64,000 nucleotides of DNA from Gemmatimonas sp. GTDB lineage: Bacteria > Gemmatimonadota > Gemmatimonadetes > Gemmatimonadales > Gemmatimonadaceae. Of the stretch, positions 3,850 through 37,122 are shown one piece after another. The DNA is taken from positions 1-64,000 of the forward strand of contig NZ_JAPZSK010000008.1 in NCBI RefSeq assembly GCF_027531815.1. The letters run 5' to 3'. The notes under the pieces were generated by a model. That model worked only from the letters and a program-made list of their open reading frames with translations. It made no database searches and was not told the DNA's origin. The translations under genes were made by a program, and so were the position numbers. Each line of letters opens with the position of its first letter. Positions within the stretch are counted from its first letter, which is position 1.

Positions 3850-4638
3850 ATGCCGGAGCTCCCCGAAGTCGAACACGCCGCCGGACGCCTGCGCGCGGCC
3901 GTGCTCGGCCACACCGTTGCCTGTGTCGAAACGCTGCACGCCAGCCAGCGCCGCGCCTTGCCCCCCTCGGCCTGTCAGGCGGTACACGGCCTCCGCATCG
4001 AACGCATCGAGCGGCGAGCCAAGGTCCAGCTGCTGCATCTGCACAACGGCGCCGTCCTCGAAGTCCACTTTCGCATGACCGGCGACTGGGAGTTCACCGG
4101 CCTCGACGAGGCCCCCCCCAGGCACGAACGGGTACGCCTCGAAACGCGCGAGGGCACCCGCGTGAGCCTCGTGGACAGCCGTGCGTTCAGCGTGGTGCGG
4201 CTGCACGCCCCCGGCACCTTCACGGGTATCGACGCCGGTCCCGAGCCGCTGAGCGAGGCCTTCACCGCCAGCGTGCTGCACGCCGCCCTCGCCTCACGGC
4301 GTGGGCCCATCAAGCCGGTCCTTCTCGATCAGCGGCTCGTGGCCGGCGTGGGCAACATCTATGCGAGCGAAGCCTGCTGGGAGGCGAAGATTCACCCGCA
4401 CACCCCGGCGCATTCGCTGTCCGCCGCGCGGGTGACGCGGCTGCGCGATGCCATCCGTCTCGTGCTGGAGACGGCCCCGACCGGACGCTACTGGGCGCAG
4501 GAGGGCGTGAGTGAAGACGCGATCTGGCGGGTGTACGGGCGCGACGGCGCACCGTGCCGCCGCTGCGGTTCCCGCATCGCGCGCACCGTGCAGGGGGGAC
4601 GCAGCACCTTTCACTGCGGACGCTGCCAGCGGCGCTGA
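3850..4638 (+). CDS. mutM: formamidopyrimidine-DNA glycosylase (Fpg)
   Basis: Bifunctional DNA glycosylase/AP lyase that removes 8-oxoguanine and formamidopyrimidines in base excision repair. The 262-aa product starts MPELPEVE, giving the catalytic N-terminal Pro and the following Glu. Lys58 counting Met (ERRAKVQ) matches the conserved hairpin lysine; GVGNIYASE is the helix-two-turn-helix signature. The C-terminal zinc finger is complete: CRRC then 16 residues then CGRC. The start is fixed by the obligatory N-terminal proline, although no Shine-Dalgarno sequence is visible. Its last 345 nt are overlapped on the other strand by a glycosyltransferase gene. Confidence 0.95.
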   Translation: MPELPEVEHAAGRLRAAVLGHTVACVETLHASQRRALPPSACQAVHGLRIERIERRAKVQLLHLHNGAVLEVHFRMTGDWEFTGLDEAPPRHERVRLETREGTRVSLVDSRAFSVVRLHAPGTFTGIDAGPEPLSEAFTASVLHAALASRRGPIKPVLLDQRLVAGVGNIYASEACWEAKIHPHTPAHSLSAARVTRLRDAIRLVLETAPTGRYWAQEGVSEDAIWRVYGRDGAPCRRCGSRIARTVQGGRSTFHCGRCQRR

Positions 4639-5787
4639 CGGTCCCGGCGCCGCGAGTGCCGACGACATGACCGCGCCCTGGCGACGGACCATGGCGCGAT
4701 CGAACGCCTGCAGCGTCTCGCGCGCCGTTGCCGCCCAGGACAACCGTGCTGCCTGCCGGCGCCCCGCCTCCTGGAGCGTGTGCCGCGCTCCCTCGTGCAG
4801 CGTCAGCTCCTGCATGGCATCGGCCATCGCGGCCGCATCGTTCCAGGCCACATAGCGCGCCGCGCTCCCTGCCACCTCCGGCAGCGAACTCTCCCGCGTG
4901 CAGATCACCGCGGCGCCTGCCCGCATGGCTTCCGCCACGGGCAGTCCGAAGCCTTCGTAGCGCGAAGGAAACACCAGCGCCGTGCACCGCCGGTACAGGG
5001 TGGCCAACTGGTCGTCGCTCACATACCCCACATGGTGCAGCCAGGGCGCCTTGCCGAGTCGCGCGCGCGTCTCGCGCGCCAGGGCGGGGCCGCACTGCAC
5101 GAGAGGCACACGCACCCCACGCGCCCAGAGCATACCCATCGCCTCGTAGAGCATCACCAGATTCTTCCGCGCGTCCTGTCCACCCACCGTGAGCATGAAG
5201 GGTGCGCCCACGCCTGCCGCCTCGAGTGGCTGCGCGTCGTCGCTCCCCCGCAGCGGCACGTCATCGGCGGCCAGCAGGGCCACCGTGATGCTGGCGGGAT
5301 CGGCCCGCAGGTGGTGCACGAGCTCGTCGCGCGAGAAGCAGGAGTCGGTGACAATGGCGTGCGCGAGCTGCACGGTGCGCCGATATCGGGCACGGTACTT
5401 CACACGCTTGAGCAGCTTCCACCACCGATGGTCGTGCTGCAGCATGGGGGCGATGTCGTGCACCGTGGCCACCATCGTGGCCGCCTGGGCAGGCGTCGTG
5501 ATGAAGTTCCACGGATACCACGCCACCTCGGCGGCTGTTGTCGGCAGCGCATCGATGCAGTCGATCGTGGCGTTGGAGGCCAGTGTCGGATGCACCGAGG
5601 CGAGCAGAAGGCGCAGGGCCGCCACGTCCCGGCGGTCCTTCACGAACAGCGTGAGCTGGAGCGAGGGCCGCTGGAGGGCGAACTCCCGCAGCAGATTGCG
5701 CACATACCGCGCGATGCCGCGACGCTCCTGCAGGAGGCGTGTTGCCTCCACGGCAAGGTGGCGCAAGGGGAAGGTGGCGGACATCAT
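4294..5787 (-). CDS. GT4 family glycosyltransferase with antisense-derived tail
   Basis: GT-B retaining glycosyltransferase. Residues 1 to about 385 are a normal family 4 enzyme: N-terminal acceptor domain with VATVHDIAPM, then FMLTVGGQDARKN, HHVGYVSDDQLATLY, and the donor-binding FPSRYEGFGLPVAEAM (an E-x7-E-like motif). The family usually ends near the LQAFDRAM segment. Here the frame stays open another 110 residues, of biased Ala/Arg/Pro composition, through the 3' end of mutM. ATG 5787 and ATG 5784 are both possible starts. It follows the RlmI-like gene by 112 bp on the same strand. The tail is what the sequence encodes, but its function is doubtful. Acceptor unknown, probably a surface glycan. 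Confidence 0.85.
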   Translation of the reverse strand: MMSATFPLRHLAVEATRLLQERRGIARYVRNLLREFALQRPSLQLTLFVKDRRDVAALRLLLASVHPTLASNATIDCIDALPTTAAEVAWYPWNFITTPAQAATMVATVHDIAPMLQHDHRWWKLLKRVKYRARYRRTVQLAHAIVTDSCFSRDELVHHLRADPASITVALLAADDVPLRGSDDAQPLEAAGVGAPFMLTVGGQDARKNLVMLYEAMGMLWARGVRVPLVQCGPALARETRARLGKAPWLHHVGYVSDDQLATLYRRCTALVFPSRYEGFGLPVAEAMRAGAAVICTRESSLPEVAGSAARYVAWNDAAAMADAMQELTLHEGARHTLQEAGRRQAARLSWAATARETLQAFDRAMVRRQGAVMSSALAAPGPSAPLAASAVKGAASPLHGARDAGTAAAARCAVAPVHPPDRVFTHALLRPVASGRGRLQHETDGIAQPRHPRGGQRMRRGVRVNLRLPAGFARIDVAHAGHEPLIEKDRLDGPTP

Positions 5788-5899
5788 GGGCTACCGAACG
5801 GGGGAGTGCAGCGAGGCATGACGCGAACACGCCAGTCGCGTTCCACCCTATCTGGCCCGCGGACCCATCGCGGTGCCCGGCATCACCGGCACGTCCGGT

Positions 5900-7156
5900 T
5901 CAGCTCATCGCTTCCAGCAGGGCGCCCTTGAGGTACCCCGACTCGGGGACGTTGATGAGCTCCGGGTGATCGAGGGGCTGACCGGTGATGGCGCGCAGGG
6001 CAAACGGACGGCCGCTGTCGGCCACCGCGTCGCTGAGCATCTCGAAAAAGAGCCCGCGCGACAGGTGAAAGCTGCAGCTGGCCGTGAAGAGCAGGCCACC
6101 CGGCGCCAGCAGCTTCATGGCCTGGAGGTTGATGTCCTTGTACCCGCGCAACGCCCCGTCGAGCGCGTTCCGGCTCTTCGCGAAGGCCGGCGGATCCACC
6201 ACGATGGTGTCGAAGCGTCGCCCCTCGCGATGCCACGTACGCAGCACCTCGAACGCATCACCGACGACCGGTTCGATGTTGGTGAACCCGTTGCGCGCCG
6301 CGTGGTCGTGTACCCGGGCCAGGGCGGGGGCGGAGATGTCCACCGCACAGACATGCTCGGCACGGGTGGCCAGGTGCAGCGCGAAACTGCCGTGGTACGC
6401 GAAGCAGTCCAGCGCCTGGCCACGCGCCAGTGAACCAATGAGCACGCGGTTTTCGCGCTGGTCGAGGAATGCCCCCGTCTTCTGGCCGTCCCATGGCGCG
6501 GCGAGATAGCGGACGCCGTGCTCGAGCACTTCGACCACCGGCGGCACCTCGCCGTACAGCAAGGTCACCTCGCGCGGCAGCCCTTCGCGTGCGCGCGCGG
6601 CGGGGTCGTTGCGCGCGAGGATGCCACGGCATCCCGTGAGATCGCGCAGACAGTCCACGATGAGGTCGGTGTGCGCGTGCATGCCCGCCGACAGTAACTG
6701 CACCACGAGGGAATCGTCGTATCGGTCCACCACCAGACTGGGCAGGCCGTCTCCCTCCCCGTGCACCAGGCGGTAGGCATTGGCCACGGCCTCCAGCGGC
6801 GCGCGGCGTGCCACGGCGGTGCGCAGGCGCGCGTGCCACCACGCGGCATCAATCACGACCTCGGGGTCGCGCTCGATACGCCGCAGCGAAATCTCCGACT
6901 GCGGGCTCCACAGGGCCCAGCCCAGTGCGGCGCCATTCGCTTCCTCCACCCGCACCACACCGGCAGGCAGCGCGGGCAGCCGTTCGACGTCGCTGCGAAA
7001 CACCCACGGATGCCCTTGGCGCAGGCGCTGGGCGCCCTTGCGATTGACCACGGCAATGTCGCCGCCTGTCACGGCGGTGGGCTCCCGGCGCGGCGAGGTG
7101 GCCCCTCCCCGGGAAGGGCCGGTGCGGGACGGTGAACGGCGATGGGGACGATTCAC
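5900..7156 (-). CDS. RlmI-like 23S rRNA (cytosine-5) methyltransferase
   Basis: SAM-dependent RNA m5C methyltransferase of the RlmI/YccW type. Order: an Arg/Ser/Pro-rich leader (1-30), a PUA-like domain (about 32-105, HPWVFRSDVERL), a linker domain (LVVDRYDDSLVVQ), then the catalytic Rossmann domain with ALDCFAYHGSFALHLA, VCAVDISAPAL, IVVDPPAFAKS, GYKDIN and PGGLLFTASCS, where the last Cys is the expected nucleophile. Length 418 aa against about 396 in E. coli RlmI, the excess being the leader, so a start nearer DIAVVNRKGAQRL is possible. It lies 36 bp after the GT2 gene on the same strand. Confidence 0.85.
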   Translation of the reverse strand: MNRPHRRSPSRTGPSRGGATSPRREPTAVTGGDIAVVNRKGAQRLRQGHPWVFRSDVERLPALPAGVVRVEEANGAALGWALWSPQSEISLRRIERDPEVVIDAAWWHARLRTAVARRAPLEAVANAYRLVHGEGDGLPSLVVDRYDDSLVVQLLSAGMHAHTDLIVDCLRDLTGCRGILARNDPAARAREGLPREVTLLYGEVPPVVEVLEHGVRYLAAPWDGQKTGAFLDQRENRVLIGSLARGQALDCFAYHGSFALHLATRAEHVCAVDISAPALARVHDHAARNGFTNIEPVVGDAFEVLRTWHREGRRFDTIVVDPPAFAKSRNALDGALRGYKDINLQAMKLLAPGGLLFTASCSFHLSRGLFFEMLSDAVADSGRPFALRAITGQPLDHPELINVPESGYLKGALLEAMS

Positions 7157-13264: not shown

Positions 13265-13676
13265 GGCAGGGCTGGTTGAGGGTCCAAGGGGCAGTATAAC
13301 CACGCCCGGAGACGAACTGCAGCCCCGTTGTGCCGGTTCCGTTGTGCCGGTTCCGGGGCGCTGGGCACGAGGGCGGGGGAGCCCGAAGCCGCTTCACCGG
13401 GAGATCCGGCCCGCCGGTTCGCTTCAGCACCCGCGTGCATGGCCCCGGAGCAGGCGGCCGCCAATCCGACTCGCCCATGTGCCACAGGGGCTGGCCGCGA
13501 TGGTCAACGTCGGGCGCGAATCGTCACCTGCATGGCACCGTCCGGGGGGGCCCCACCGTCGCATGTGCGCGTTCTTGTACGCTGCATTAGGATGCTCGGA
13601 CTGGACTCCCCATCCCAATCACCCATCTGCTGCGGCCATCCCGTTCAATGGTCGCGTTCCACCCACCGGAGCCCCG
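13265..13676. other. gene-free stretch
   Basis: About 410 bp. Plus-strand open frames run through it into the gene at 13677 but are rich in Arg, Pro and Gly and lack recognisable features. I see no RNA gene or repeat here. Confidence 0.4.
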
Positions 13677-14120
13677 TTGCCGACTCAGGATGACATAGCA
13701 CCGACCGCTCGCGGCGAGAGCGCGTTGGTGAGCCCGGACGCGGATGCCCTGCTGTTCGAGGCCCGCTTGGCCCTACGCGATGTGCTGCCATCGGTGGTCC
13801 ATCAGGATCACACATGGGCGGCCTCGCTTGTGCACTGCCATGTGACCGACGAGCGCGTGCGCCATGTGCTGCAACTGCACGCTGGCACGGCGCGCGCCGT
13901 CGGCGGAACCGCCGATGTGCAGGTCCACGTGCTCGAGCGCTATCTGAGCGTCGCCGGTGTGGTTGGGCTGCTCGGCGATGGAGCCGTGCGCACGGGCAGC
14001 TTGCCCCTGCACACGGGACGGTACGTGGAGGTGACGCTCGTGGAAGGCGGCACCCGTCTGGCGACCTTCTGGATGCCCCTGGTGCCCGTGTTCCGGGTGT
14101 CGTCGCGCATGGTGGCCTGA
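13677..14120 (+). CDS. hypothetical protein
   Basis: 147 residues from TTG 13677, which has GGAG at 5 nt; GTG 13728 (VSPDADALLFE), with GAGAG at 7 nt, is an alternative. The body looks like a folded cytoplasmic beta-rich protein (HVTDERVRHVLQLHA, VHVLERYLSVAGVVG, RYVEVTLVEGGTRLATFWMP). There is no signal peptide, membrane helix or known motif. Composition is that of a real protein from about residue 15 on; the upstream open frame is not. Function unknown. Confidence 0.6.
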   Translation: MPTQDDIAPTARGESALVSPDADALLFEARLALRDVLPSVVHQDHTWAASLVHCHVTDERVRHVLQLHAGTARAVGGTADVQVHVLERYLSVAGVVGLLGDGAVRTGSLPLHTGRYVEVTLVEGGTRLATFWMPLVPVFRVSSRMVA

Positions 14121-14211
14121 CCGGCCGGACCGCGCACGCCGTGCAGACCGCCGTGAGATAGCTCGCACGGCAACTGTCGGGTAAATCCTCACGCAGGAGA
14201 GGGGGGGCGCT

Positions 14212-14242
14212 GCTGAACGGGGAGGGATCCCGTGTTCAGCTT
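14212..14242 (+). terminator. possible terminator hairpin
   Basis: GCTGAAC (14212-14218) pairs with GTTCAGC (14234-14240), with an inner GGGATCCC, and TTT follows. It sits 90 bp past the hypothetical gene and just before the decayed tract. Confidence 0.45.
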
Positions 14243-14251
14243 TCCCCCCAC

Positions 14252-14968
14252 ATGCCCACCGTCTCGCTGCTCCCTCTTTCGCTGCCAACAATCGGCGGCT
14301 CGGCGCTGCTGTGCTGGCGTCACTCGTGGCGCCCGTCCGGGCGCAGGCGCAGCCATCGGCGCTACGCGACACGGCGGCAACGCCGCGCCTCCCGTTTCCG
14401 GTGGGTGAAGTCCTCGACTACCGCGTGAACGTCGCCTTCGGCGGCAACATCGGACACGGGCAGATGCGTGTCGAGGGGCCGGTGCTCGAGCGCGGCGTGC
14501 CCACCTGGCGCCTGGTCTCCGAAACGAAGGCCAGGCGCGCGTTCGTTCGCGCCACCGATCGCACGACCTCCTGGCTCGACCCCACGCGCTTCGTCGCCGT
14601 GCGCTTCGAGCAGCGCGAGCGTCATCCGTTGTCGCAGTCGGATGCCCTGGTGGAAATGGATCTCGCCGCTACCGCTCGATGAACTCTCCTTCCTGCAGTT
14701 CCTGCGCACCATCCCGCTCGACCGGGAAGGCGCTCACCAGTTCAATCGTCACTTCGACGTGACGCGCAACCCGACGCTCGTCACGGTCGGGGCCGAGGAA
14801 GTGGTGGAAACGTTCGCCGGGGCGTTCACCACCCGGGTGGTCATCATGCATGTGCGCGATCCCAAGCACCATAAAGGGGTCGGTCCATTCAAGCTCAACA
14901 TCGAGCTGTCGTCCTGTCGCATCCCCGTGCGCATCGTGAGCCGCATGCCGATCGTCGGAGACCCCACG
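14252..14968 (+). pseudogene. broken DUF3108-type secreted protein gene
   Basis: Remnant of an exported DUF3108-like protein split over frames. A signal-peptide-like start MPTVSLLPLSLP at 14252 changes frame near 14310, where LASLVAPVRAQAQPSA continues in the next frame. The conserved core FPVGEVLDYRVNVAFGG runs to about 14665, then a second break moves the protein into the frame of PLDELSFLQFLRTIPL. That frame reaches the family's IPVRIVSRMPIVG end but without its own stop, running straight into the next remnant at 14969. The loss of sequence between SQSDALVEMD and PLDELSF implies a deletion as well as a shift. Sequencing or assembly error is an alternative for each break. Confidence 0.75.
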
Positions 14969-15292
14969 ATGCGCTCCCCGCTTTCGCATCTCACCATATC
15001 CGCCGCGGCGCTGCTCCTCGTCGCCGCCACGCCCGCCGTGCCCGGCCGTGCGCTGACCTTGCGTGACGGCATCCGCCTCTGGTTCGACGGCACCTCCACG
15101 CTGCGGAGCGGGAGCTGCAGCGCCGACAAGATCGAGGTCTCGCTCAACGCGGCCACCGACGACGTCATCGAGCATACGCTCGACGGCAGGAAGGTGAGCG
15201 GCACGGTGGAGGTCGACTTCCCCGCGGCACAGCTCGAGTGCAGGAACGACACGCGGAACGAGCACATGGGCAAGGCACTCAAGATGAAAGAG
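14969..15292 (+). pseudogene. 3'-truncated YceI-family gene
   Basis: Begins with a normal secreted-protein start, ATG 14969 with GGAG 8 nt before it and a signal peptide SHLTISAAALLLVAATP. It continues with YceI-domain sequence: LWFDGTSTLRSGSC, then VEVDFPAAQLECRND and NEHMGKALKMKE. A full YceI domain goes on for roughly another 80-90 residues; here the sequence switches at about 15292 to part of a porin with the frame kept open. YceI proteins bind isoprenoid-like lipids in a periplasmic beta-barrel pocket; this fragment cannot close that barrel. Confidence 0.75.
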
Positions 15293-15994
15293 TTCAGCAA
15301 CGGTGCCGCTGCCGATGGGGGAAACGGGCAGGTACTCTACACCCCGCTCGTGGGCAACCTCATTCTCGATGCCTTCACCACCGAGGTCGGGGCCGAGGCC
15401 ATCTTCCAGCAGCACGGCCTGCTCGGTGTGGTGGCACTGACGAACGGGGAAGTGCGGGGCCAGACGCTGCGTGCCAGTGATCGCTCCCCGGCCTTCATGG
15501 CGAAGCTTGGCTTCGACAAGCAGCTCAATGACGATCTGCGCACACGCCTCACGGGGTCGTTCCGCAATCAGGGGTCGGCGGCCAACGGCACCTTGTACAG
15601 CGGTGACCGCGCCGGCTCGCGCTACTACTACGTGCTCGAGAACACCGCGTCCACCGAAGCGGCGAACTTCACCTCGGGCATGATCAACCCGGGCTTCACC
15701 GACAAGGTCAACGCGGTCATGGTGAACCCGTTCGTCAGGTTCCGCGGCGGAAACCGCCACGCGTGAAGTGACCCAGCTGATGGGCGAAGGCACCGTCCGC
15801 CTTCTCAAGGGCGACAAGCTCTTCCTCTCGGCGCGCTGGAACCGGGTGGAAGGCGACCTGGGGTCGTACCGTGTCACCCCCAGTACCGGCGCCCCGGTGA
15901 CCGTCACCAATCGCGACGTCACGGTGGCCCGCAGGACATCCGCAGCGGCGGCAAATGGCGGGGCTTCGTACTCGCAGCGGCAACCAGCTTCTGA
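15293..15994 (+). pseudogene. 5'-truncated, multiply broken outer-membrane porin gene
   Basis: Middle and end of a barrel protein of the type with a conserved NG-x2-YTPLVGN-x3-DAFTTE strand. Frame 1 gives VLYTPLVGNLILDAFTTE to NPFVRFRG (about 15745). After a junction, frame 2 gives AAETATREVTQLMGEGTV to VTVAR (about 15930). After another junction, frame 3 gives the C-terminal strand DIRSGGKWRGFVLAA and stops at TGA 15992 after a terminal Phe, as porins do. The N-terminal half is missing. The pieces stay in the right order, so deletions rather than rearrangement explain them. A strong terminator follows at 16011. Confidence 0.75.
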
Positions 15995-16010
15995 TCGGGG
16001 CAGGTGCAAC

Positions 16011-16043
16011 GAGGCCCCCGCACCGGCATGGTGCGGGGGCCTC
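16011..16043. terminator. bidirectional terminator
   Basis: Perfect 14-bp stem GAGGCCCCCGCACC / GGTGCGGGGGCCTC with a 5-nt loop, between the converging porin remnant and the TonB receptor gene. Confidence 0.85.
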
Positions 16044-16079
16044 GTGGTGCATCGGGGGCATCCCCGATGCGGTGCGGTA

Positions 16080-18827
16080 TCAGAGCGAGTACGCCAGACG
16101 CGCGTACAGGAACCGGCCGTTGAAGCCGAACGGCGACAGCCCCGAGAAGCGGAAGACGCCGAAGGTGCCCTGACCACCGTAGCCCGTGGCTACGTCGCCC
16201 AGATCGGTGATCTGGTCGGGATACACGTCGAAGACGTTGTCCGAACCCAGCGTGAGGGTGGCCCGCTTGAGCAGCTTGTACGAGGCGCTCACGTCGGTGA
16301 TGACCTTCGCGCTCAACTCCACGTCCGGGACCTGCCGCGCTGTGCCGGTGGCGAGCAATTGCCGCCCCGTCACCTCACCGAACCGCTGCCCGCGCAGGGT
16401 AAAGGTGAAATCCTTGATGTCCCACGTGCCGTTGAGCACCAGATTGTTGCGCGGCTGTCCCACCTCGATGCGTCCGCGCTCAGCGCGACCGAACAGCGTT
16501 TCGTTCAGGTTACCCAGCTGCGGCGGCGTGTTCACCACCACGCGCGTCACCTTGGTCTGGTTCTGATTGTAGCCGGCCGTGAGCCGCACCACGCCGTTCG
16601 CCTTGAGGTCCAAGCCGTAGTTGACCACCACATCCAGGCCATTGGTGCGCGTGTCGATGGCGTTCGTGAAGTAGCGACCACCGCCAATGCCGGTGAGCCC
16701 GTTCTGGGCGAAGAAATTCACGATGCCCGTGCCAATGAAGTTCTCCGACAGCACGATGCGGTCACTGATGGCGATGTTGTAGTAGTCCGCCGTGACGGTG
16801 AGGCTCTTGTTGGGCTGGAGCGTGATGCCGGCACTCAGGTTCACCGAGTTCTCGGGCTTGAGGTCCGTGGCGCCCAGCAGACGCGCCTCACGGCTGGCCA
16901 CCGGCAGCGTCTTGATGTCTACCGGCAGGCCGTTCACGAACGTGGTGGCCGTGGACGTGAAGAAGCTCTGCTGCAGCGACGGCGCCCGAAAGCCGGTCGA
17001 GGCGGCACCACGAATGGCAAACTGCTCCACGGGGGCAAAGCGTGTGGTGAACTTGCCCGTCGCCTGCGATCCGAAGTCGCTGAAGTTCTCGAAACGCGCC
17101 GCGGCACCCACGAGCCACTTCTTGGTGATGTCGCTTTCGACGTCCACGTACGCGGCAACGGCGGTACGCGACTGGTCGGTAGCGTCGGTGGGCGAGAATC
17201 CGGGAAACACCTGCGACCCCACCAGCGCGATCGTCGTCTGGCCAGCGGCGTTGCGCACCGGTGCTCCGTTGATGTCGAGCACCGGGACGCGACCGTTGAT
17301 GTACGACGCCTCTTCGCCCTGCTCGATGCGGTAGTTCTCCCAGCGGAATTCGGCGCCGCTCGAGAGGCGCACCGGCTTGCCGGCGGCACTCACTTCACGC
17401 GTGACGTCGAAGTTCGTGAGCGCCTGCGCGAAGCCGAGGGTGCCGGCATCGAACACCGTCGGGCTGTTGAGCCCCATCGAGGCGTTGTTGGAGTTGGACA
17501 CCGTGATGCCGAACTCGTTCATGCCGAACACTTGGCTCAGGTCCCAATCCCACCCCTTGGCCGTGCCTTTGGCACCACCCCCCGCCGAGAAGTCCGTGAT
17601 GTCGCTCTCGATGTTGGGAAGGAACCCGTTGGGATACAACCGCGCGACCACCTGCGCCGTCTGGATGGGGCGCCGGAAGAAGCCCGTGGACCGCCCGTCG
17701 CGGCGGCCAAACGATCCGAACCCGTACAGCTGCAGGTTCTCGCTCACATTGTGCGCCGCGTTGACCATGCCCACCACGTCGGCGGTTGCGGCATCGCCCG
17801 ACCAGTGCGTCAAGCGGTTGGCCGTGGATTCGCGCGGATCCCCCGTGGGAAACTGCTGCCGGGGATCCTGGAAGCTCCGGTTGGTCATGGCGCGATTGCG
17901 CCACTCGATGCCGGCGTGCAGGTAGCTGCCGTTGCCCCAGGTCACCGCCTGATCGGCCGACGCGGTCGTGTTGGTCCCATCGTTCCGCTGGCCGAGTCCT
18001 TCCACGTCGGTGTTGAACTGCCCCGTCTGAATGGAGGCGCCGCCCGCCGTGGCACCCTTGAGGATGATGTTGATCACGCCCGCGATGGCGTCCGAACCGT
18101 ATTGCGCGGCGGCGCCGTCGCGCAGGATCTCGATGCGGTCAATCATGGACGCAGGAATGGCGTTGAGGTCCACCGCCGAGGTGCCGCGCCCCACCGTCCC
18201 GTTGTTGTTGATGAGCGCGCTCGTGTACCGCCGCTTGCCGTTCACCAGCACGAGCGTCTGGTCCGGGGCCAAGCCACGCAGCGTGGCGGGGCGTACATGG
18301 TCCGTGCCATCGGCGACGGCGGGGCGCGGGAAGTTCAACGACGGGGCGGCCGCCTGCAGCATCTGCGCCGTCTCGACGCGACCCGTCGACCGCAGGTCGG
18401 CGGTGGTGATGACGTCCACCGGGACGGGGCTGCTCACGAGCGTACGCTCACCACCACGCGACCCGGTCACGGCGACCGCCTCCAGCTGCGTGGTGGACTT
18501 GGCCAGCACGAAGTTCTTGGTGACCGTACGTCCCGCTTCCACCACCACGGTGTCCACGCGGCCGGCGTAACCCAGCATGCGCGCGCGCAGTTCGTACCGG
18601 CCCGGGCGCAGCGTGAAGCGGTAGCTGCCGTCGGCCCTGGTGATGGCACCGATCTGCGTACCGGTCACACCAATCGATGCCCCCTGGAGCGCCTCGCCGC
18701 TCTCCGCCACCGTCACCTTGCCCTCTACCGTGCCCGTCCCCTGAGCCTTCAGCGCGAGAGGAGACGCAAGCAGGGACAGCGCAGCACACGCTGTCGTGAC
18801 AGCATACCAACGTCGGACACATCGCAT
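16080..18827 (-). CDS. TonB-dependent outer-membrane receptor
   Basis: 915-aa TonB-dependent transporter. ATG 18827 has GGAG at 8 nt; the frame is open further upstream but without signal-peptide character. Order: signal peptide ending LASPLALKAQ, a carboxypeptidase-regulatory-like domain (about 30-110, GKVTVAESGEALQGASIGV), plug domain (about 120-260, VAVTGSRGG, VLVNGKRRYTSA, RIEILRDGAAAQYGSDAIAG, GVINIILKG), then a long 22-strand-type barrel. The usual aromatic last residue is replaced by Leu (RLAYSL). The ligand is unknown; the N-terminal regulatory-like domain is common in receptors for peptides or oligosaccharides. A terminator follows; no partner gene is adjacent. Confidence 0.9.
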   Translation of the reverse strand: MRCVRRWYAVTTACAALSLLASPLALKAQGTGTVEGKVTVAESGEALQGASIGVTGTQIGAITRADGSYRFTLRPGRYELRARMLGYAGRVDTVVVEAGRTVTKNFVLAKSTTQLEAVAVTGSRGGERTLVSSPVPVDVITTADLRSTGRVETAQMLQAAAPSLNFPRPAVADGTDHVRPATLRGLAPDQTLVLVNGKRRYTSALINNNGTVGRGTSAVDLNAIPASMIDRIEILRDGAAAQYGSDAIAGVINIILKGATAGGASIQTGQFNTDVEGLGQRNDGTNTTASADQAVTWGNGSYLHAGIEWRNRAMTNRSFQDPRQQFPTGDPRESTANRLTHWSGDAATADVVGMVNAAHNVSENLQLYGFGSFGRRDGRSTGFFRRPIQTAQVVARLYPNGFLPNIESDITDFSAGGGAKGTAKGWDWDLSQVFGMNEFGITVSNSNNASMGLNSPTVFDAGTLGFAQALTNFDVTREVSAAGKPVRLSSGAEFRWENYRIEQGEEASYINGRVPVLDINGAPVRNAAGQTTIALVGSQVFPGFSPTDATDQSRTAVAAYVDVESDITKKWLVGAAARFENFSDFGSQATGKFTTRFAPVEQFAIRGAASTGFRAPSLQQSFFTSTATTFVNGLPVDIKTLPVASREARLLGATDLKPENSVNLSAGITLQPNKSLTVTADYYNIAISDRIVLSENFIGTGIVNFFAQNGLTGIGGGRYFTNAIDTRTNGLDVVVNYGLDLKANGVVRLTAGYNQNQTKVTRVVVNTPPQLGNLNETLFGRAERGRIEVGQPRNNLVLNGTWDIKDFTFTLRGQRFGEVTGRQLLATGTARQVPDVELSAKVITDVSASYKLLKRATLTLGSDNVFDVYPDQITDLGDVATGYGGQGTFGVFRFSGLSPFGFNGRFLYARLAYSL

Positions 18828-19018
18828 GGCGGGATCTCCGTGAGGGTAACGGATGGACCGGGTGGTCCACAGAAGGGCTAATCTCCCGCTTTTCGGGCCG
18901 AGCCGCAACAAGAGGCACGCCAGACGGTTTGCCATGGGACGAAATGCGGGGCGCCATCCCCGGCATATATGTGACCGCGCGTTGACGGTCCCGTGACAGT
19001 CGGTCGCGCCGCTGAGAT

Positions 19019-20245
19019 ATGGCCGTCGCACACTCCCACCTGATGCCACGCCTTCTCGTTTGCACCGACAGCTTCCCGCCCCAGCTCAATGGAGTGAGCG
19101 TCGTGACGGCCAGCATGGTGACCGGTTTGACCGCGCGCGGGTGGGACTGCGCAGTGCTGGCGCCCGCCTACCCCCCGACGCTCTGCGCGGCGCTTTCCGA
19201 GCCACCTGTCCTGCGCCGTTTCTCGATATCGTCTCGCGCCCTGCCGTCGTACCCGGCGGTCCGACTCGCGTGGCCCCCCCTGCGGTTGGCGCACCGCATC
19301 ATCCGGGACTTCCGTCCCGATCTGGTCCACTGCGCCACCGAATTCACCGTGGGGTGGGCCGGTCTGCGCGCGGCTCGCGCGTACGACGTACCGGTGGTGA
19401 CCACGCATCACACGGACTTCTCGCGCTACTGCGATGCCTACGGCGTGCCGTTCCTGCGTCCGGTCGTGCAGCGCTGGCTCGGCGGCTTTCACCGGCGTGC
19501 GCAGCTTACGATGGCTCCGTCCACCACGGTCGAGCGCACGCTGCGCGCGATGCACGTTGGGCACACGGCCGTCTGGGGCGGAGGCGTGGATACCACGCAT
19601 TTCTCGCCACGACACTTCTCGCTGCTGAGCCGCCATCGCTTTGCCATGGGTGCCGACTTCACCTTCCTGCATGTGGGCCGGCTCGCCCCCGAGAAGAACG
19701 TGGAGTTCGTGCTCGACGCCTTCGAGCATGTGCGCGTGCGCTTTCGCGAGCGTCGACTGCGCCTCATCATCGCCGGGGCCGGGCCGATCGAACGACGACT
19801 GCGGCAACGGGCCGGCGACGACGTGATCTTCCTGGGGGCCGTCGATCGGGTGCGCGACCTGCCCGCGCTGTACGCGAGTGCCGACGGATTCGTCACCGCG
19901 TCGGAGACCGAAACGCTCGGGCTGGTGGTGCTCGAGGCCATGGCGTCAGGGTTGCCCGTGGTGGCCTGTGACGCAGCTGGCGTGGGCGAGCATCTCGAAC
20001 ATGCGCGCAACGGACTCGCCTTTGCGCCGGGTGACATGAACGGCTGCGTGTCGGCCATGTCGCGTCTGGTGGCCGACGCCTCGCTGCACGAGCGACTGCG
20101 CGTCGGTGCCCGCGCGTCGGCCGAGTCCCTGTCCACCGATCGGGCACTGGATCAGCTGGATGCCCTGCTGCACAAGGTCATGGCTGCCGCCGCCGTCAGC
20201 TGTGGACCGTCAGCCTCGCCGCTGGTGATGACCCCTGCACGGTGA
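19019..20245 (+). CDS. GT4 glycosyltransferase (mannosyltransferase-like)
   Basis: GT-B enzyme, 408 aa, resembling the MgtA/PimB group of GDP-mannose-dependent transferases. N-domain LLVCTDSFPPQLNGVSVV and LVHCATEFTVGWAGL; GVDTTHFSPRHF; donor domain FLHVGRLAPEKNVEFVLDAF and ASETETLGLVVLEAMASG (E-x7-E). Start ATG 19019 or 19043 (MPRLLVC); neither has a strong ribosome site. It is a paralogue of the gene at 20196, which faces it, and the two 3' ends overlap by 50 nt. It probably adds mannose-type sugars to a glycolipid with its neighbours. Confidence 0.88.
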   Translation: MAVAHSHLMPRLLVCTDSFPPQLNGVSVVTASMVTGLTARGWDCAVLAPAYPPTLCAALSEPPVLRRFSISSRALPSYPAVRLAWPPLRLAHRIIRDFRPDLVHCATEFTVGWAGLRAARAYDVPVVTTHHTDFSRYCDAYGVPFLRPVVQRWLGGFHRRAQLTMAPSTTVERTLRAMHVGHTAVWGGGVDTTHFSPRHFSLLSRHRFAMGADFTFLHVGRLAPEKNVEFVLDAFEHVRVRFRERRLRLIIAGAGPIERRLRQRAGDDVIFLGAVDRVRDLPALYASADGFVTASETETLGLVVLEAMASGLPVVACDAAGVGEHLEHARNGLAFAPGDMNGCVSAMSRLVADASLHERLRVGARASAESLSTDRALDQLDALLHKVMAAAAVSCGPSASPLVMTPAR

Positions 20246-34676: not shown

Positions 34677-34704
34677 GCAACGCCTCCTGACGGCCAGCGA
34701 CTGG

Positions 34705-37122
34705 TTGTGGGGGTGGGATCCGACACCGGGCATCGTGTCGGTGTGGGCCAGCGGCGATGGACAGGTCACCGTGTGGCGTCGTGACGGCGACGGGCTGCTG
34801 TGCACGGAAACGGTGCCATTCCGCCCGTGGCTCCTGCTTGCGTCGCTCGACGCGCTGCGGGCGTCGGGGGGCTCGCATGCGGTGCGCCGCCTCGACGCCC
34901 CACCCGTACCGGGAGACGGACTCGCTGCCTGCGAACTGCAGGGGCCGGGCGCGCTGCGATGGCTCGTTTCGCACGATTCGTGGTCGGAGCTCGAACGGGT
35001 CGTTTGTCGCGGGGCCGCGCGCGGACTGGGGCGCCGCTGTACGCATCTGTCGCAGCTGCCGCGCGAGATGCGCCATGTGCTGCCGGCCGAGGAGCAGTAT
35101 CTCGTGGCCAGCGGTCGTACGTACTTCCGGGGGCTGACGTTCGCGCAGCTGCGGCGCTTGCAGTTCGACCTCGAAACCACCGGGCTCGATGCGCGCACCG
35201 ATCGCATCTTTCTCATCGCCCTGGGTGCCCCCGACGGCACGGTCGAGCTGCTGGAGGCGGAAGGCGAGGGCGATACCGCGGAAGCGGCGCTCATCGGCCG
35301 CTTCGTGCAGCGCGTTCGCGCGCTCGATCCCGACGTCATCGAGAACCACAACCTGCACGGATTCGATCTCCCGTTCCTGCGACAGCGCGCGCGACGGCTG
35401 GGGGTGCCGCTCTCGATGGGGCGTCTCGCGCACACCGATCTGGTGGAGCGCGCGGCCATGCGCGGCGTGGTTGCCGACGATGAGCGGCTGACCGGCGGCG
35501 GTGACCGTCGGGTACGGTATATCGTGCCCGGACGGGAATGCATCGACACGCTCGATGCGGTGCGCCGCTACGACTTTGCCGTGCGCGAGCTGCCAAGCTA
35601 CGGCCTCAAGGCTGTGGCACAGCACTTTCGGGTTGCGGCCCCTGCCCGGGAACGCATTCGCGGCGATCGCATCCATGCCGTGTACCAGCGCGATCCCGCC
35701 CGCGTGCGACGTTACGCGAGCGCCGACGTCACCGAGGTCGCCGCCCTGTCCCGCCTCCTGGGGGGCGCCGCCTTCGCGCTCGCCGGCATGGCGCCACGTC
35801 GCTACGAACGGCTGGCCGACGCCGGACCGGCCACCGGCGTCATCGATCCGCTGCTCGTGCGTGCCTACCTGCGCGCGGGGCAGGCACTCCCCGCCTACGC
35901 GACCGGGGACGATACCGTGCACAGCGGCGCCGCCCTCCATCTCTTCACGGTTGGAGCGCTGCACCGGGTCGTGAAGGTGGATGTGGCCAGCCTCTACCCG
36001 TCACTCATGCGCGCCTATCGCATCGGCCCTGCGCGCGATCATCTGCAGGCACTGCTCACGCTCGTGGACGGGCTGGTGGAGCAGCGTCTGGCGGCCAAGG
36101 CGCGTGCCAAGGCCGCGGCGCCGCACTCCGACGAGCGATTCACCTACGAGGCGGTGTCGGCTGCCATGAAGCTGGTGGTCAATTCGGCCTACGGCTATCT
36201 CGCCGCCAGCGACGGACTCACCCGCTTTGCCGATGTGCATGCGGCCAACGACGTCACGCGGCAGGGACGGGAGACGCTGCGCCTCATGTGCCAGGCGCTG
36301 GCCCAGCGCGGGGTGGAACTCATCGAGGCCGACACCGACGGCGTGTACTTCGCCGTGCCCGACACGTGGAGCGAGGCCGACGAGCAGCGGGTGGTGGCCG
36401 AAGTCGCTGCCCTCCTGCCACCGCTCGTGCAGCTCGAGCTGGAAGGACGATATGCGGCGATGCTGTCGCACGAAGCCAAGAACTACGCGCTGCTGACCTC
36501 CGACGGGCGGTTGCTGCTCAAGGGCGTGGCGTTTCGTTCGAGTCGCGCCGAGCCGTTCGGGGAGGAGTTCCTGCGCGTGGCCATCGCCCGCCTGCTGGCC
36601 CACGATGTGCCCGGCGTGCGCGCCGCCTATCTGGAGACACGCGACGCCCTCCACACACGCCGGCTGCCGACGCTTGCCGTGGCGGCGCGGGTGCAACTGC
36701 GCAAGTCGCCCGAGATGTACGAACGGACGCGCCACTCGCGACGGGAGTTTGCCTATGAAGCCGTGTGGCAGTGCCGAGGCGGCACATGGCGTGCCGGTGA
36801 TCGCGTGCGCGTCTATCGGGCCGCCGGTGGGAGGGGACGGGTCATCGACGAACTCGACGGCGAAGCGTATGTGGATGATGATCCGCGCGACTACGACGCG
36901 GTGTACTACGCGTCGTTGCTGCGGCGCACCTTCGCGACCCGCCTGGCGCGTGCCTTCCGCCCGCCCGACTTCGAACGGCTCTTTGCCGATGCGGAGCAGT
37001 TGCCGCTCTTCGCGCCAGCCCTCGAGGAGATCCGACCTGTCGCGACGCGTGACCCCGCCGCGTGGCGTCTGCTCGACGAGGCGGCGGGTGGCGCACGCGC
37101 AGCGGCGGACGGTCAGCGATAG
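34705..37122 (+). CDS. family B DNA polymerase with 3'-5' exonuclease
   Basis: 805-aa family B polymerase. Exonuclease motifs: FDLETTGL (D155, E157), ENHNLHGFDLPFL and YASADV. Polymerase motifs: A, DVASLYPSLM (about 426); B, KLVVNSAYGYL; C, EADTDGVYF (about 543), where the usual DTDS is DTDG. An RNase H-type proofreading domain and palm are thus complete. TTG 34705 is the first standard start, but the frame continues upstream as TASDWLWGWDP from CTG 34687, which may be the real beginning. No other replication gene is nearby. A repair or translesion role like E. coli Pol II is the likely one, by inference. Confidence 0.88.
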   Translation: MWGWDPTPGIVSVWASGDGQVTVWRRDGDGLLCTETVPFRPWLLLASLDALRASGGSHAVRRLDAPPVPGDGLAACELQGPGALRWLVSHDSWSELERVVCRGAARGLGRRCTHLSQLPREMRHVLPAEEQYLVASGRTYFRGLTFAQLRRLQFDLETTGLDARTDRIFLIALGAPDGTVELLEAEGEGDTAEAALIGRFVQRVRALDPDVIENHNLHGFDLPFLRQRARRLGVPLSMGRLAHTDLVERAAMRGVVADDERLTGGGDRRVRYIVPGRECIDTLDAVRRYDFAVRELPSYGLKAVAQHFRVAAPARERIRGDRIHAVYQRDPARVRRYASADVTEVAALSRLLGGAAFALAGMAPRRYERLADAGPATGVIDPLLVRAYLRAGQALPAYATGDDTVHSGAALHLFTVGALHRVVKVDVASLYPSLMRAYRIGPARDHLQALLTLVDGLVEQRLAAKARAKAAAPHSDERFTYEAVSAAMKLVVNSAYGYLAASDGLTRFADVHAANDVTRQGRETLRLMCQALAQRGVELIEADTDGVYFAVPDTWSEADEQRVVAEVAALLPPLVQLELEGRYAAMLSHEAKNYALLTSDGRLLLKGVAFRSSRAEPFGEEFLRVAIARLLAHDVPGVRAAYLETRDALHTRRLPTLAVAARVQLRKSPEMYERTRHSRREFAYEAVWQCRGGTWRAGDRVRVYRAAGGRGRVIDELDGEAYVDDDPRDYDAVYYASLLRRTFATRLARAFRPPDFERLFADAEQLPLFAPALEEIRPVATRDPAAWRLLDEAAGGARAAADGQR

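Follow-up and report, generated by a model that had tools for sequence, protein, structure and literature searches.

Probable decay of a DUF3108–YceI–porin gene cluster by successive deletions in a Gemmatimonas genome

Positions 14252–15994 of the window (the whole 64,000-nucleotide stretch of Gemmatimonas DNA analysed here, from contig C8 of a 4.31-Mb genome that comprises 27 contigs and is 99.9% complete) align collinearly with three genes that lie side by side and intact in relatives and encode a DUF3108 protein, a YceI protein and a porin-like protein. The closest intact locus is that of genome G044, where the trio spans about 3.0 kb (L057 5954–8965) versus about 1.74 kb in the window. By this reference, about 40% of the trio is missing from the window. 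Alignment to relatives places disabling mutations, namely frameshifts and truncations, in each of the three genes. The pieces had been recognised from the letters alone in the original prediction and assigned the correct internal order, and both points hold. Pfam identifies the DUF3108 pieces, while those of YceI and the porin are placed by alignment to intact neighbours. The intact G044 YceI protein is a member of Pfam PF04264, and a profile search with the outer-membrane porin-like protein of the trio gave no Pfam match. Nearly all genomes of the genus also have a diverged paralogue of DUF3108, which in the source genome lies at C6:402082–402666.

Features of the tract and its immediate surroundings are collected in Table 1, with deletion sizes taken from gap-tolerant alignment of the window to G044 and G006. 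The body of DUF3108 reads in the 14311 frame, from which small indels near 14318–14340 have separated the ATG. Frame changes had been placed at about 14310, 14670, 15745 and 15932, and alignment, mainly to G044, locates them as indels at 14318 and 14339, at 14669/14670, at about 15749, and within 15902–15933, where a further porin deletion of about 50 bp net is found. Two in-frame joins had also been proposed. One lies at 14958/14965, where a deletion of 225 bp (75 codons) took the end of DUF3108 and the spacer to just before the YceI start, leaving the YceI piece with its native ATG and a signal-peptide-like N-terminus. The other falls within 15295–15323, with a net loss of 906–918 bp, a multiple of three. 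This second join, placed at 15292, is in frame as proposed, but it is probably the product of two deletions rather than one, because a probable YceI scrap of about 19 bp sits inside the gap. The scrap (GGTGCCGCTGCCGATGGGG) aligns best to a single YceI site, common to G006, G009 and G022 (P = 0.013, 0.025 and 0.004, respectively, against shuffles); the same shuffle test gave no significant YceI-site match in G044, G001 or G020. Alignment of the fragments to intact homologues located each of at least five junctions in 1.7 kb, as predicted. The last piece is the genuine end of the porin, comprising its final 19 codons and stop.

Table 1. Features in and around the decayed tract (window coordinates)
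Feature	Position	Strand	Evidence or comparison
Ser/Thr protein kinase scrap, 39 bp, activation-segment region	13430–13468	+	82–87% identity to G006, G009, G017 and G044
Kinase 3' end and following spacer	13577–13660	+	Alignment to L022/L024 and G005
Intact 147-aa gene between the two decayed stretches	13677–14120	+	Open; conserved in G005, G044, G006 and G009
DUF3108 pseudogene, N-terminal part	14252–14669	+	Pfam PF11306 positions 2–69 of 209; alignment to G044, G006 and G009
Junction, 50-bp deletion, frameshift	14669–14670	+	Alignment
DUF3108 pseudogene, C-terminal part without its end	14670–14958	+	Pfam PF11306 positions 112–202 of 209; 79% aa identity to G044
Junction, 225-bp deletion, frames joined	14958–14959	+	Alignment
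YceI pseudogene, first ~110 codons	14969–15298	+	73% aa identity to G044 YceI
Probable YceI micro-scrap (GAAADG, from FGTAADG site)	15302–15320	+	Best matches at one YceI site
Porin pseudogene, middle part	15323–15749	+	79–82% nt identity to G006/G044; ~ residues 198–340 of G044 porin
Junction, ~50-bp deletion, frameshift	15749–15750	+	Alignment
Porin pseudogene, next part, 15768 frame	15750–15932	+	Alignment
Porin C-terminal strand and stop	15933–15994	+	67-column match, 81% identity to G044
16-bp perfect inverted repeat, terminator-like	16009–16045		Also downstream of the G006 and G017 porins

Alignment shows that decay also extends upstream of the trio. The upstream gene in relatives encodes a protein kinase of 508–510 aa (the intact G006 copy, 508 aa, matches Pfam Pkinase), and in the window it is reduced to a scrap and its 3' end. 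This corrects the original picture of the tract's upstream side: the 147-aa gene is open, but the kinase gene beyond it is decayed too. The 147-aa protein shares 91% amino-acid identity between the window and G005, and has no Pfam or NCBIfam match in a profile search. In G044, a gene that reads as S9-peptidase-like (L057 3503–5908) lies between the 147-aa gene and DUF3108; the window and G006 are without it.

The intact trio, in the same order and neighbourhood, is carried by G044, G006, G009, G017, G001, G022, G004 and G020. The window agrees with the intact Gemmatimonadaceae cluster in G044, G006 and G020 in which genes are present, in their order and orientation, and in the genes that flank them. 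The difference is that these relatives have three separate full-length genes, whereas the window version is truncated, frameshifted and fused. Relative to G009, the DUF3108 gene of G006 (L022, about 3495) is frameshifted by one base, which could reflect either an error in sequencing or another inactivation, independent of the first. Among the 30 genomes of the genus in the genome collection, the window's own included, the porin occurs in 11 and YceI in 10, and the remaining genomes have neither. By this distribution, the trio is a patchy module in the genus, and a dispensable one, found in about a third of the genomes. No literature on a DUF3108–YceI–porin unit was found.

The nearest sister, G005, is 96% identical in rho, with dS of 0.17–0.39 across seven genes, and is collinear with the window on both flanks at 90–93%. 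In G005, window positions 14125–16084 are replaced by 1.48 kb holding an intact beta-lactamase-like gene; DUF3108, YceI and the porin have left no trace at the corresponding locus. The window itself lacks the beta-lactamase-like gene. The most likely ancestral order is DUF3108–YceI–porin–beta-lactamase-like gene, because G044 carries the fourth gene right after the porin and G005 retains such a gene. G005 would thus have lost the first three genes, while the window lineage would have lost the fourth and be losing the other three. In the window, a TonB-dependent receptor gene (16080–19049) adjoins what is left of the trio; in G005 its neighbour is the beta-lactamase-like gene. The receptor gene is not at the corresponding place in G006 or G044, and was therefore either gained before the split between the window and G005 or lost in the others.

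Together, the tract is very probably a pseudogene cluster, in which the trio became dispensable, probably after the split from G005, and has been eroded by deletions, small indels and substitutions. The ancestral trio would have become dispensable in the window lineage, its loss being neutral or mildly favoured. It would then have been worn down by five or more deletions of medium size, together with a few small indels and substitutions that alter amino acids. The deletions probably arose in succession, through ordinary illegitimate joining. The mechanism is ordinary pseudogene decay, and it changes no established view. The decay tract stitched by deletions that was originally predicted is thus borne out by the aligned junctions, by the lack of the joined structure elsewhere and by the separate loss in G005.

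The substitution record of the pieces is consistent with this, although the signal is modest. In the tract, dN is 0.121 on the window branch versus 0.032 for G044 and 0.057 for G006. Amino-acid positions that are invariant in other taxa are altered at 23 of 269 sites in the window, including the YceI Trp of STLRSWSC; the same count is 26 of 291 in the outgroup G020 and 0–7 in other taxa. Since the first intact neighbours also had raised dN on the window lineage, a larger control of eight intact genes from the window, pooled, was built. The ratio of dN on the window branch to that of G044 plus G006 is 1.35 in the tract (95% range 1.00–1.81), compared with 0.68 in the controls, and the difference is weaker with other outgroups. 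With G020 as third taxon, the window branch relative to the two others together gives 0.41 versus 0.34 in controls, and with G004 it gives 0.34 versus 0.39, values that are indistinguishable. The window/G044 dN ratio remains raised, at 1.7 and 1.4 with G020 and G004 as third taxon, respectively, versus about 0.9 in controls. The excess of amino-acid change in the tract is therefore modest and depends on the outgroup. Strongly relaxed selection (omega of 0.27 on the window branch versus 0.10–0.14) had been considered, and was weakened when the larger control cut the excess to about 0.03–0.06 per site. For the 1.46 kb that survive, such an excess is equivalent to an estimated 50–100 neutral substitutions. 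No nonsense mutations are seen in the tract, where about 1–2.4 would be expected (0.020–0.024 per substitution). Given the estimated 50–100 neutral substitutions, five to seven deletions without a nonsense mutation are unremarkable. Set against dS to G005, the dN excess suggests that inactivation came after the split from that genome.

An assembly fault and a deletion hot spot are rival accounts of the tract. Collapse or misjoining during assembly would have made the junctions out of three intact genes, and would account for several of them lying within 1.7 kb and for the lack of point nonsense mutations. It is very unlikely, as the pieces contain an excess of amino-acid changes, at invariant sites too, no other YceI or porin copy exists in the source genome with which the locus could have collapsed, the adjacent kinase gene is also decayed, and the sister G005 lost the locus independently. 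Decay under relaxed selection, rather than assembly collapse, appears to be the best reading. Even less likely is a hot spot at this locus, where direct repeats or a mobile element would promote short deletions; a local hot spot had been offered in the original prediction on the strength of at least five junctions in 1.7 kb. Short direct repeats were looked for at the three clear junctions and show no excess over chance: junction homology is 1–4 bp versus a chance mean of 3.3–3.4 for random position pairs, with the ancestral sequence approximated by relatives. Such repeats as the tract contains are short, imperfect and without partners across the junctions, and the neighbouring 147-aa gene is intact. 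Comparison of the window with G005 over 47 kb shows about ten other sites of large indels, and the number of deletions in the tract is not extreme against the estimated neutral substitutions. Both the chance-level homology and the indels elsewhere tell against a hot spot confined to this locus, which stands out only in that its genes seem to have become superfluous.

The fused frame is also a candidate chimeric exported protein. This had been proposed to start at 14468; however, the first ~68 codons from there are out-of-frame DUF3108, and the only plausible start is therefore the YceI ATG at 14969. From 14969 to 15766 there are 265 open codons, in which about 110 YceI codons are joined to about 140 porin codons. 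A new protein, combining the signal peptide and N-terminal half of YceI with porin strands and kept by selection, would fit the two in-frame joins, the length of the open frame, and the retention of the native YceI start with a GGAG motif 5' of it. That such a protein is maintained is nevertheless extremely improbable. Homologues with the same joined structure, expected of a real fused gene, were looked for in 148 family genomes and the genome collection, and none was found: matches outside the window extend over pieces of one gene or over short overlaps, never the whole fused frame, and a scan of the genome collection with the chimera returned only distant porin relatives, in Bacteroidota. 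Omega inside the frame (YceI and porin pieces) is 0.29, not below the 0.25 outside it, in a comparison of low power. Furthermore, the conserved YceI Trp is lost, and long open frames often arise by chance in DNA this rich in G+C. Predicted without an alignment, the structure of the chimera has a mean pLDDT of 30, which is uninformative because the intact YceI control reached only 45. What stands of the proposed protein is an open in-frame fusion, starting later than thought and with no sign of constraint within it.

Pseudogene decay thus remains the preferred reading, and it has close parallels. Deletional bias erodes inactivated bacterial genes (Kuo and Ochman 2010, PMC2916853), and the bacterial pseudogenes of that study were likewise shortened mainly by deletions, in lineages with intact or gene-less relatives. 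Compared with them, the window tract is about 40% gone in length, yet its scraps are readable. The locus would represent an envelope gene cluster caught midway through loss, with intact (G044), half-eroded and fully lost (G005) states in one genus. This makes it a tidy case in which to measure how large the deletions are, and pseudogene decay has been little studied in its phylum.

Elsewhere in the window, positions 4632–5900, which hold the greater part of a minus-strand, glycosyltransferase-like gene, are missing in G005, where the flanks are only about 34 bp apart. Similarly, the 2.4 kb at 34681–37103 are absent from G005, with flanks about 2 bp apart, and contain an open frame that, as read from the sequence, resembles a DNA polymerase of family B that includes an exonuclease domain.
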